Of a DNA stretch of 36,912 nucleotides, positions 1,865 through 6,554 are shown piece by piece (the stretch's first letter is position 1; each line of letters starts with the position of its first letter). Made by a program: the position numbers and the translations under genes. The stretch covers positions 1 to 36,912 of the forward strand of contig CAJCCR010000079.1 of the NCBI GenBank assembly GCA_903960945.1, given 5' to 3'. The notes below the pieces were generated by a model. It saw nothing but the letters and a program-made list of their open reading frames with translations. It had not been told where the DNA came from and did no database searches. Origin of the DNA: an uncultured Planctomycetaceae bacterium (GTDB lineage Bacteria; Planctomycetota; Planctomycetia; Gemmatales; Gemmataceae).

Positions 1865-3226
1865 TCAATCACCGGATATTAGCTTTGAAAGGATCGGGGA
1901 GATTTCTCCAGCGAGAAAGACCGATCCGGTGATGCACAGAATGCCGGGGTTGGGCGTTGCAAAAAAAGCTTTTCTTCCAGCTTCTTCTAAAGTTTCACCA
2001 AGAAAAGCTTCACCAGTGCTGTTTTGGGTCCAAATGTCTAACAATTCTTCCGGCTTTGCTGCTCTTGGGCTGTTTATCGATTGCGCAAAGATAACCTTGG
2101 TAAATATTCCTGAGAATTCTTGAAACATGCCAGAAATGTCTTTGTCGGAACTAGCGCCAAAGAGTAATACCCTTGGAACTTCTGGAAAACTTTCTTTGAT
2201 GGTTCGCACCAACGCCGCGGCTGATGCACGATTATGGGCGCAATCAACCACAACCCATGGGCTTTGACATATAACTTGCATACGGGCAGGCCATTTTGTA
2301 TTTCCCAACCCCCATTGCACCGCTTCATCCGAAATCACAAATCCCAATAAACGCAATTCTTCTACCGCGCTTACAACTATCGCAGCATTTGCTGCCTGAT
2401 GCTCACCCAGTAAAATCATTTCCATCCAAGGCCATTGTTTTTTTTGAGTTTTAATCTGTACTGAAGGTGCAACAATCAAACTATCTTTAAAAATCCCAGG
2501 CCGATAATCCCAACTAAAATCCACATTGGCTTCAACCAACTTAGAACCCACCGTAGATGCAATATCTTCAATGACTTGCCTAGGGCCTGAGTTGCAAACC
2601 CCGCTAATAACCGGAACGCTAGGTTTAATGATTCCAGCTTTTTCCCTAGCAATATGTAAAAGTGTAGGCCCAAGCTGCTTTTCGTGATCCAAGCTAATGC
2701 TGGTAATGATAGAAAGCAAAGGATTGCAAACATTGGTGGAATCCAACCGACCTCCCAACCCAACTTCGAGAATTGCAAAATCGACTTTGTTTTCCAAAAA
2801 ATAAATGAATGCAACAACGGTTGCAACTTCAAAAAAAGTGGGCATAAACCCAAGTGGCTCGCACTGCGGAAACCCAATGGCTGTTTTGATCTTCGTAAGA
2901 ATCAAATCGAGCGAATCCGCAGAAATGTTTTGGCCATTGATACTGAACCGCTCTTCCACAAAAAACAAATGAGGAGAAGTATATAGCCCTGTGCGAAATC
3001 CCTGCTGTGAAAGAATTGCAGCAAGCATGGCAGAAGTCGAACCCTTACCCTTGCTCCCCGCCACATGAACGAAATTAATTTTTTTTTCTGGGTTACCGAG
3101 AAGGTCTAAAACCTTGCGCATCCGATCGATTTTAAAATCATCCGGGGTGGGAAGGCGATGCTCGAAATTAATCAAGCCGTACCAGAACCCCCGGGGTGAC
3201 TCATCAAGGTGTTTCGAAGAAAGCAT
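1865..3226 (-). CDS. folC: Folylpolyglutamate synthase / dihydrofolate synthase
   Basis: 'NFVHVAGSKGKGSTSAMLAAIL' P-loop, 'EVGLGGRLDSTN', 'VVDCAHNRASAAAL': Mur-ligase/FolC motifs. Confidence 0.95.
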   Translation of the reverse strand: MLSSKHLDESPRGFWYGLINFEHRLPTPDDFKIDRMRKVLDLLGNPEKKINFVHVAGSKGKGSTSAMLAAILSQQGFRTGLYTSPHLFFVEERFSINGQNISADSLDLILTKIKTAIGFPQCEPLGFMPTFFEVATVVAFIYFLENKVDFAILEVGLGGRLDSTNVCNPLLSIITSISLDHEKQLGPTLLHIAREKAGIIKPSVPVISGVCNSGPRQVIEDIASTVGSKLVEANVDFSWDYRPGIFKDSLIVAPSVQIKTQKKQWPWMEMILLGEHQAANAAIVVSAVEELRLLGFVISDEAVQWGLGNTKWPARMQVICQSPWVVVDCAHNRASAAALVRTIKESFPEVPRVLLFGASSDKDISGMFQEFSGIFTKVIFAQSINSPRAAKPEELLDIWTQNSTGEAFLGETLEEAGRKAFFATPNPGILCITGSVFLAGEISPILSKLISGD

Positions 3227-3286: not shown

Positions 3287-5548
3287 TTATTCACCTTGGA
3301 CAGGCATGCAAATCTGCTCGAGCAACTTTTCACATTTTTCTTGAACTAAATTGGCAAGATTAGGCAATGGCTGGCCTTCAACCAACCCCTCCGCCAAGCT
3401 TGCTAAAATCCTTGGGAACGCATAAAGAGAAGCGCAGCCATCAAGGGTAAGAGGCTCCATCCTGCTATGCCTGCCTTTTTTTTCCATGTCTTGCCAGGCC
3501 TGTTTTCCCTTACCAACAAGCATCATGTCGGTCTCGGGCCTAAGAAGAATCAAATGATCGATTACAGCGGGCTCCAAATCCCAAGCAGAAAGTTTAACTG
3601 CGAGATCTCGGGATTTCCCCTGACCATTAGCCAAGAATAGCCCAATCCCGACTTTCCATGGCTGACCATCTCTGCAAACCCAATGCGCAAGTGTAATCGC
3701 ACCATAAGTTGGGTGATCACCGAATGTCCATTCCGATACCACATGCTGTAAACGCCATGGCCCAACCTTAAGTCCTTGATCATGGCAAAGATGCAGCAGA
3801 CTACCCAAACCGGCCTGCAATTCTTTTGTCGCACCAGCAAGTGCACCCTCAGGAGACAACTGCTCCTTGGCAAGAGAAAATTCTTGCGCCCATAGCTGGC
3901 TCAAGGCTTCAGGCTGAAGTTCCTGTATTCTTTTTTCTTCTTTCAGTTCTGCGGCAGATGCATTTTTAAACTCGCCACTGATTGGCAAGCTGTTTCTGAG
4001 TTCGGCTTTTTCAATCTGCGCCTCTTTTCCCATATGGCATTCGGGGGTAGTATCCAGAATAACCATTGATCGGACTCCCTCAGGCAATTGGTCCTGTGGA
4101 ACTTCCAACTCGACGGAATCAACATGGTAGCCCACGGATGAAGTTTGGCCAGAAGATGAAGTAGGAACCTCGTTGATTGATTCGCTTTCTGCCCCATAAA
4201 CAATTTTGTCAAAGAAATGCCTGAATTGTTGAAGCATATCTCGAAGAGTCGGTTCGGTTCTTGCGATACGATCGATTTGTTCCAAAGTAAAAGGATAAAA
4301 CTCTGGAAGGCTTTTAAAATTTGGCAAACCACGAAGTGCAGGTTCGAGCCTAGCCAACACAACTTTCCGCACCAGTTCAAATGGGGGCGCATCAAGCTTC
4401 ATGCATTTGATTGTGCCATACCCAGGAACATGAACCGGATTATTAAGCCTGTCTTGAATATAACCATCAAGCGAGGGAATGAATCTGTTCCATAATCCGC
4501 GTTCCGCAAAAACGAGAAAGCTGATGCCATCAAGCTGATGCATCGCTTTAACAATACCTGCGAAAAAGGTTTCAGCAGTTTTGTGGGCATCATCATTTCT
4601 TCGGGCAAGCAAAAGATCTTCCAATTGATCAAATGCGATAACAACCGGGATACGGAGTTCCTGCATTACACCCATCATGGCCTTAAAAAGCGCAAGCACA
4701 AGGTCCTGCCTGCCTGGATGCATTTTAAAATCGAGTTCTGCAAAGCCATAAGTTAGAAAGCTTGCCAACTCGGTCTCATCCTGAAGCAAAACCGATCTAG
4801 CAAAACCCTGCAAAATAGCATGTCGCATCATAGCAGCAGCATCGTGACCAGAAGTACGATCGACATATTCGCAAACAAGTTCAAAAGCCCGATAACAAGT
4901 TAATCCAGCTTCATCACAAAGCTTACGCACCATACCAGGCGACTTAGCATCCTGACTTGGTCGAGACAAAGCATCGATGAGCCATTGGGTTCGCTCAAGG
5001 GCTTGAGTGCTACCTAGGCCAAAAGTTTTCGCAATCCATCCCAAGCCAGGCGGTGGGAAAAGATCGAGCCTTTCCTCGGAGGAAAGATCTGAAAGGGTGC
5101 GGGTTAAAAGCATACGAATCAACTGCTCGCCCACATATTCGAGGGGCCTGCTGTTTCGTTGTTTACCACCCCCAAGCAAGGTGTCAAGCAACTGAAACAA
5201 AAGGTACTCTAAAAAATCGGTGTCGCGTTGATAAGAACCGGGGGTGACAAGTAATTGCCAATTACCTTCCATGCCATGTTTGATGGAATGCAAAAGGTGG
5301 GTTTTACCTGCGCCCTTATTTCCAAGAATTGGAACCACTTCAGAATGCGTATTCGGGGTGTATCGGTATTGATCAACAACACGGAGTAGTTGTTCACGTT
5401 CGCGCGAATAAAGCTCGGGAACATGATAAGTCGAACAAACTTCATCATCCGGATTGCGGGCAAAATAATTCCGGAATGGGTTACCTTGGCGCTTGAGCCA
5501 ATCGATAGCATTCTGATGATTCGGTTCGTTAATTAAAAGCTGGGACAT
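3287..5548 (-). CDS. Large P-loop ATPase (AAA/STAND-like) with uncharacterised C-terminal domain
   Basis: Walker A 'LGNKGAGKTHLLHSI', Walker B-like 'VVIAFDQLEDLL'. Start at MSQLLINEPNH (5548), 19 nt downstream of the upstream gene's stop. Confidence 0.88.
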   Translation of the reverse strand: MSQLLINEPNHQNAIDWLKRQGNPFRNYFARNPDDEVCSTYHVPELYSREREQLLRVVDQYRYTPNTHSEVVPILGNKGAGKTHLLHSIKHGMEGNWQLLVTPGSYQRDTDFLEYLLFQLLDTLLGGGKQRNSRPLEYVGEQLIRMLLTRTLSDLSSEERLDLFPPPGLGWIAKTFGLGSTQALERTQWLIDALSRPSQDAKSPGMVRKLCDEAGLTCYRAFELVCEYVDRTSGHDAAAMMRHAILQGFARSVLLQDETELASFLTYGFAELDFKMHPGRQDLVLALFKAMMGVMQELRIPVVIAFDQLEDLLLARRNDDAHKTAETFFAGIVKAMHQLDGISFLVFAERGLWNRFIPSLDGYIQDRLNNPVHVPGYGTIKCMKLDAPPFELVRKVVLARLEPALRGLPNFKSLPEFYPFTLEQIDRIARTEPTLRDMLQQFRHFFDKIVYGAESESINEVPTSSSGQTSSVGYHVDSVELEVPQDQLPEGVRSMVILDTTPECHMGKEAQIEKAELRNSLPISGEFKNASAAELKEEKRIQELQPEALSQLWAQEFSLAKEQLSPEGALAGATKELQAGLGSLLHLCHDQGLKVGPWRLQHVVSEWTFGDHPTYGAITLAHWVCRDGQPWKVGIGLFLANGQGKSRDLAVKLSAWDLEPAVIDHLILLRPETDMMLVGKGKQAWQDMEKKGRHSRMEPLTLDGCASLYAFPRILASLAEGLVEGQPLPNLANLVQEKCEKLLEQICMPVQGE

Positions 5549-5567
5549 AGTAACTCCATTTGGTAAA

Positions 5568-6317
5568 TCAGCCAGCACTGCACAAGGCAATTGAACTGTC
5601 ATCCGGATTAAATACAGCAGCAGCGGGCCCTAAACTTGCATAACAGGCAATTTCATGGCCAGCCATCAAGGCTAACTCAGGCTTGGGAATTTCATAAAGT
5701 GGGCCGGTCCATGGATGCAACTCAATGAGTTTCTTCTGCCTTAAATTACGCAGCGCATCATGAAAAGCCCCCGGTGTAATCCCTGGGTATAAAGGCGTTA
5801 ACAGTTGATAAAGATAATAAAGCTGACAATCCCCTGCTCTGCCCGAATCACTCCATTCCTTCAAAAGAATGAAAATATGTTTAGCAGGCGAACTAAAATC
5901 TTCTAATAAAGGTGCGCCCAATTTCATGGGTGCTCCCAATTTCAGGGCGATCGAGCCCGCAACTTTCTCCAAAGATTGATAGAAAGCGATATCATCATTT
6001 GCGGGATTAATAACGCTCTTTTCAGCCGGGGATTCGATTATTGCGGATGCATTTTCCAACAACCTATCAATCTTAATTCCTTCCAACACCGCACGAATAC
6101 CCAGACGAGTAATCTTGACCATTTCGGTAAAGGGCTTGGTGGATTGTTCAACCACCTTTAATAACCGCATCTCAAAACAATATTTCGCTGCAAGCTTTCC
6201 TGATGCAGATAGAGGAAACAAACCCTGCACACCTTTTTTGTTAAACAAAGAGCAAACGCCAGCAGATTCCAAGGCAAAGCTTAAGGCATGCAATATGATG
6301 ATTTGTTGATCCGCCAT
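5568..6317 (-). CDS. Uncharacterised 249-aa protein with winged-helix-like C-terminal segment; first gene of the pair with the 3287-5548 ATPase
   Basis: Single long ORF; 'LYYLYQLLTPLYPGITPGAFHDALRNLRQKKLIELHPWTGPLYEIPKPELALMAGHEIACYASL' has helix-helix-wing character; close spacing to the ATPase gene. Confidence 0.75.
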   Translation of the reverse strand: MADQQIIILHALSFALESAGVCSLFNKKGVQGLFPLSASGKLAAKYCFEMRLLKVVEQSTKPFTEMVKITRLGIRAVLEGIKIDRLLENASAIIESPAEKSVINPANDDIAFYQSLEKVAGSIALKLGAPMKLGAPLLEDFSSPAKHIFILLKEWSDSGRAGDCQLYYLYQLLTPLYPGITPGAFHDALRNLRQKKLIELHPWTGPLYEIPKPELALMAGHEIACYASLGPAAAVFNPDDSSIALCSAG

Positions 6318-6554
6318 GCCCCCTCCTTGGGTCTTTAAATCTCTAGCCTAGTAATCACTTCTTCCATGAAGTAACGCAATCAGGCCATAATCCGAGCGTA
6401 GCATAGCTTTTTATTAATAAGAAAGGCAAGATCACAAAGGAACCTAACATGTAAAGCTTTGGAGTAGAAACCCGGCTTACCAATTAGGGCAAACAAGGAA
6501 GCTTAGAGGGTTTAGCCCGGTATCCGCACAAAGTGCTCAAGAGCCTGTTTTACT

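Follow-up and report, generated by a model that had tools for sequence, protein, structure and literature searches.

A conserved winged-helix and Orc/Cdc6-like ATPase gene pair of the Gemmatales related to HerA/FtsK-linked systems

The locus and the two predicted proteins

The window analyzed here is a stretch of 36,912 nucleotides and represents contig 79 of the 4.67-Mb assembly of an uncultured Planctomycetaceae bacterium (Gemmataceae in GTDB). Two neighboring genes are present on its minus strand, a gene for a 249-aa protein and, after a spacer of 19 nt, a gene for a P-loop ATPase of 753 aa (Table 1). Lengths, coordinates, gap and motifs had been given correctly in a preliminary description of this DNA, which left the strand unstated. 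Both genes were called uncharacterized there, and indeed no profile library names either of them: for the 249-aa protein nothing was found in Pfam, NCBIfam and PADLOC, and the ATPase yielded only sub-threshold AAA_16, AAA_22 and DnaA-like matches in these libraries. A sequence search gave no close solved structure for the ATPase, and searching the PDB with sequence profiles returned nothing convincing. An earlier in-frame ATG at position 5602 would extend the ATPase to 771 aa. The start at 5548 is preferred because of the GGAG motif in front of it and the starts of the orthologs. Since many conserved homologous frames are found in the same order, both ORFs are real beyond chance. A promoter scan revealed fewer sites than in shuffled sequences and was not used.

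Table 1. Features of the locus, given in window positions.
Feature	Position	Strand	Basis
AGGAGG, ribosome-binding site for the winged-helix gene	6322..6327	-	sequence
Double winged-helix partner protein, 249 aa, stop codon included	5568..6317	-	ORF list; AlphaFold2; Foldseek; orthologs
Winged helix 1, residues 1-81, candidate DNA-binding domain	6075..6317	-	AlphaFold2; charge
Helical connector, residues 83-126, partly low confidence	5940..6071	-	AlphaFold2
Winged helix 2, residues 143-232, acidic, candidate protein-protein surface	5622..5891	-	AlphaFold2; charge
GGAG, ribosome-binding site for the ATPase gene, within the 19-nt spacer	5554..5557	-	sequence
Orc/Cdc6-like AAA+ ATPase, 753 aa, C-terminal (most likely inactive) nuclease-fold domain, stop codon included	3287..5548	-	ORF list; profiles; AlphaFold2; Foldseek
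AAA+ domain, residues 17-455	4184..5500	-	AlphaFold2; Foldseek
Walker A GNKGAGKTH, residues 76-84	5297..5323	-	alignment of 25 sequences
Walker B VVIAFDQLED, residues 302-311	4616..4645	-	alignment
Disordered, fast-evolving linker, residues about 456-545	3914..4183	-	AlphaFold2; identity comparison
PD-(D/E)XK-fold domain, residues 546-750, without (D/E)XK triad on the third strand, (most likely) inactive REase-like	3299..3913	-	AlphaFold2; Foldseek; alignment
folC-like gene, 60 nt downstream of the ATPase gene; neighbor, outside the pair	1865..3226	-	ORF list; neighborhood survey

The AlphaFold2 model of the ATPase (pLDDT 83) displays an AAA+ domain, a disordered linker and an alpha-beta C-terminal domain. 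In Foldseek the AAA+ domain matched archaeal Cdc6 (1fnn, probability 0.99) and ORC2 (1w5t, probability 0.93), and RdrA of the RADAR system was also among the matches of the ATPase. Here, the whole-protein E-values are weak (best 0.009) and the domain assignments rest on probability and topology. Drg1, p97 and NVL, the top whole-chain matches, were discounted due to low probability and an rmsd above 25. Within the 25 aligned sequences, G76, G79, G81, K82 and T83 of the Walker A motif as well as D307, L309 and E310 of Walker B are invariant.

The elements of the C-terminal domain follow, in the predicted structure, the order known from PD-(D/E)XK nucleases. The restriction enzyme EcoT38I was matched with a probability of 0.96 over 194 aligned columns, which fits the size of this domain. 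The strand expected to carry the (D/E)XK residues reads KVGIGLFL, and an acidic residue at positions 632-639 was present in none of the 25 sequences. This indicates that the domain is most likely catalytically dead. Its last helix ends at residue 721, and the remainder of the protein is a short tail that contains a single helix but no C-terminal winged-helix (wHTH) domain.

The model of the 249-aa protein (pLDDT 82) contains two confident winged helices with a helical stretch between them. The closest solved folds in Foldseek are MarR, PadR and F-93 winged helices, and Fur regulators were found too. With a mean net charge of +1.6 across 64 orthologs, winged helix 1 is mildly basic, and winged helix 2 is acidic (mean net charge -2.8). 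The latter carries the signature DC-L, G-FHD-LR, HPWTGPLY-P-P and GHE-AYY and contains most of the strongly conserved positions of the protein. Being both acidic and highly conserved, it probably offers a surface to a protein rather than to DNA. The preliminary description had pointed to a helix/wing-like segment, which corresponds to residues ~180-229 and is indeed predicted as winged helix. Of the two functions proposed for it, protein binding is likely, whereas DNA binding is disfavored by the acidic character. We infer that winged helix 1 may contact DNA and winged helix 2 the ATPase. A solitary winged-helix paralog termed WH2 (L076-L091; G000:C232:307-528) is encoded in many or most Gemmatales genomes, some of which have no ATPase; its neighbors are not generally conserved.

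Distribution, pairing and selection in the Gemmatales

A single-sequence search in 99 relatives identified the ATPase in 63 and the 249-aa protein in 65, essentially all of them Gemmatales. Named homologs from Zavarzinella formosa, Limnoglobus roseus, Gemmata sp. IIL30 and many Gemmataceae MAGs assign the DNA to the order Gemmatales of the Planctomycetota. Using a profile search in 398 genomes of the class, the ATPase was found in 92 of the 102 Gemmatales genomes. Seven of the ten genomes without it are at most 82% complete, yet G019, G058 and G062 lack it at more than 90% completeness. Outside the order, only nine weak matches (E 1e-8 or worse) were obtained among the class genomes and no ortholog. 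In a phylum-wide sample of 392 genomes, some of them also part of the class sample, no ATPase match at E 1e-10 was obtained except in the genome of the window itself. Likewise, no match to the pair was found in collections of plasmids, phages and viral contigs.

The 249-aa gene lies directly upstream of the ATPase gene on the same strand in 71 of 78 named loci, or 71 of 75 assessable ones, since three run off their contig; the pair of the window comes on top of this count. In the remaining four loci (L170, L171, L175 and L187) the ATPase is present without an upstream wHTH gene. These loci, together with the three near-complete genomes lacking the ATPase, indicate that the pair is not strictly essential and that the partners are separable. 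In L170 and L171 a LOG-family gene is still located upstream of the ATPase, and the arrangement suggests that the wHTH gene was lost from the ancestral locus. An apparent fusion of both genes in L164 was rejected, since the second half of the wHTH domain is in the wrong frame, which points to a frameshift caused by sequencing error or decay.

Among 18 genomes, the mean identity is 61% for the ATPase, 39% for the 249-aa protein and 43% for DnaA. Within the ATPase it amounts to 65% in the AAA+ domain, 26% in the linker and 63% in the C-terminal domain. For folC it is 48%, a value drawn only from the 8 genomes in which folC adjoins the pair. Pairwise distances correlate with those of DnaA for the ATPase (r 0.81) as well as for the 249-aa protein (r 0.91), and with each other (r 0.84; Mantel p 0.001 in all cases). 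The dN/dS values are 0.02-0.05 for the ATPase, 0.11-0.15 for the 249-aa protein and 0.08-0.14 for folC; purifying selection on the ATPase is therefore stronger than on folC. Distances that track DnaA and a low dN/dS argue for vertically inherited core genes, unlike a defense gene with fast turnover. Besides a full-length DnaA, the genome of the window codes for a DnaA-like paralog with a shorter frame of 356 aa (G000:C254 and G000:C262), and similar pairs are present in many of the tested genomes.

Co-conservation, adjacency and correlated divergence lend good support to the initial proposal that an ATPase and an adaptor work together. The survey of co-occurrence, which had been suggested as a check, revealed co-conservation in relatives and favors the core genome over a defense setting.

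In 32 of 67 assessable relatives, folC lies no more than about 300 nt downstream of the ATPase, and LOG-family, histidine-kinase and G6PD genes recur near the pair. A HerA/FtsK-like frame was present in none of 99 loci around the pair, and no nuclease was recognized among the conserved neighbors, with divergent nuclease families scanned in some loci only. A dedicated FtsK/HerA partner encoded elsewhere in the genome was considered and rejected, as no SspH-like partner is common to all tested genomes; these contain an ordinary FtsK and mostly also an FtsK-like protein of ~1300 aa. A minority of Gemmataceae harbors a divergent paralogous operon (L072-L075 and L128-L131) consisting of a wHTH gene, an ATPase gene whose product shows an identity of ~30% at most, and a third gene. 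The product of the latter is about 210-255 aa long, has no Pfam name and contains one or two hydrophobic segments at its C-terminus; it is possibly membrane-anchored.

Relationship to HerA/FtsK-linked and other known systems

In other planctomycete families, three loci (L122-L124) contain a wHTH gene (~300 aa) followed by a gene for an AAA+ ATPase (~660 aa). The latter is followed in L123 and L124 by a gene for an FtsK/HerA protein that bears SspH/mad8 signatures as well as an FtsK-alpha domain. Homology between the ATPases of these systems and those of the Gemmatales begins at the N-terminus and extends across the C-terminal domain (hhalign 98.3%, E 2.6e-14), and the wHTH proteins show a weak sequence link (hhalign 7%). 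The FtsK/HerA protein with FtsK-alpha domain at L124:9736-11706 gave a Cas4-like match in PADLOC within its N-terminal half and lies next to the wHTH and Orc/Cdc6-type genes; this is likely a complete capture-type defense operon. Single proteins of 1071-1213 aa in L126, L127 and L133 combine an AAA+ domain with a HerA/FtsK-type ATPase.

Loci of the L122-L124 type match the Orc/CDC6-iREase-wHTH-HerA/FtsK neighborhoods ("HerA-FtsK capture") which are predicted to be counter-invader systems and whose FtsK-alpha domain is traced to cellular FtsK (Rakesh, Aravind, Krishnan 2024, PMC10853773). The Gemmatales pair shares with them the Orc/Cdc6-type AAA+ domain and the inactive REase-fold (iREase) domain after it. 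Their neighboring multi-wHTH protein has a counterpart in the 249-aa protein with its two predicted wHTH domains, although the sequence link is weak. In contrast to the capture systems, the pair has no linked HerA/FtsK in the 99 loci, and no linked active REase was recognized beside it in the scan described above. Furthermore, the capture ATPases carry a C-terminal wHTH after the iREase domain (in the distant homologs, this domain is followed by about 105 residues), which is missing from the Gemmatales ATPase. Finally, the capture systems are mobile and patchy, whereas the pair is vertically inherited core genome. The Gemmatales pair has either lost or never possessed HerA, an active nuclease and a wHTH at the C-terminus of the ATPase.

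Other systems show a similar logic. In the phosphorothioate system SspABCDE, as far as described in PMC10853773, SspC is an AAA+ protein of the Cdc6/Orc clade and SspB a triple-wHTH protein, which resembles the two-protein arrangement of the pair. Modification genes are, however, not near the Gemmatales pair, and the available part of this article describes no SspC with an iREase domain, which the Gemmatales ATPase has. The restriction modules DndFGH/SspFGH also combine a multi-wHTH subunit, described as three wHTH domains in the case of DndG, with P-loop subunits. Here, the Gemmatales pair lacks a DndF kinase as well as a protein of DndH size with active REase and HerA, and neither protein of the pair gave a PADLOC match to Dnd/Ssp subunits. 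The archaeal Orc1/Cdc6 initiators share the AAA+ fold but carry their own wHTH, which is a separate protein in the Gemmatales. The inactive nuclease fold is an addition, and the host bacterium has an ordinary DnaA.

Possible role of the pair

The simplest account, to which we give about an even chance, is a DNA-handling complex that is specific to the order, vertically inherited and derived either from the Orc/Cdc6-iREase ATPase and wHTH modules or from an ancestor common to both. The pair resembles an anti-phage or mobile-system module that has become a permanent housekeeping pair of the chromosome. The direction of descent, from defense to housekeeping, and a role in chromosome maintenance are what we infer from these comparisons. 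DNA handling had been suggested before and is supported by the predicted folds and homology, namely the Orc/Cdc6 AAA+ domain, the nuclease-fold domain and the winged helices. In such a complex, the AAA+ domain would assemble as an ATP-dependent oligomer on duplex DNA, and the inactive nuclease-fold domain, held by a flexible tether, might passively contact DNA or protein. The 249-aa protein would supply in trans the wHTH missing from the C-terminus of the ATPase, placing the basic winged helix 1 on DNA while the acidic, highly conserved winged helix 2 docks on the ATPase. Instead of cutting foreign DNA, the complex may then act on the chromosome in replication, segregation or repair, where it would have something to mark, load or remodel.

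It is rather unlikely that the pair is a standing anti-phage or anti-plasmid system fixed in the order, which would detect or scan foreign DNA and bring in a nuclease from elsewhere in the genome. Such a function would fit the homologous ATPases that adjoin wHTH and FtsK/HerA genes with SspH/mad8-like signatures, also Cas4-like in L124, in neighborhoods of the kind that PMC10853773 predicts to be counter-invader systems, as well as RdrA among the Foldseek matches. However, the near-universal single locus, slow evolution and housekeeping neighbors speak against it, the sampled flanks contain no recognized effector, a mobility signal is absent, and PADLOC gave no match for the pair. The initial suggestion of a role in conflict therefore holds for the distant relatives, whereas the Gemmatales pair behaves as core genome and defense is not the favored reading. 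We regard it as unlikely that the ATPase, as a STAND or signal-ATPase, controls the 249-aa protein as a DNA-binding transcriptional regulator. MarR, PadR and Fur regulators are its closest solved folds and the solitary WH2 paralog is present in most of these genomes, but wHTH 2 is acidic with a surface motif more conserved than that of wHTH 1. In addition, the AAA+ domain is Orc/Cdc6-like and not a sensor with repeats, a sensor domain is absent, and the nuclease fold is better explained by DNA contact.

Orc/Cdc6-clade ATPases also serve transposons such as Tn7, according to PMC10853773. This would be in line with the DNA-targeting ATPase of a domesticated, TniB/IstB-like transposon, now idle or choosing integration sites. 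We regard this as highly improbable, since no transposase, terminal repeats or copy-number variation were noted, the synteny with folC is stable and selection is strong. Returning to a chromosomal DNA-handling complex, a more specific version is that the module was domesticated at the base of the Gemmatales into a chromosome-maintenance complex working with the cell's own FtsK, which we consider a decidedly long shot.

The ATPase is less diverged than DnaA and under stronger selection than folC, yet the pair has no name in Pfam, NCBIfam and PADLOC, and nearly all genomes of the Gemmatales, an order whose cell biology is unusual, carry it. Provided that the pair is indeed a domesticated relative of the HerA-coupled defense ATPases, it would represent a testable case of traffic between defense or mobile systems and chromosome maintenance, as well as a candidate for how Gemmatales handle their own DNA. 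To our knowledge, budding planctomycetes have no FtsZ. If the link to FtsK were true, the pair would add a component, new and specific to this lineage, to chromosome segregation in these bacteria.
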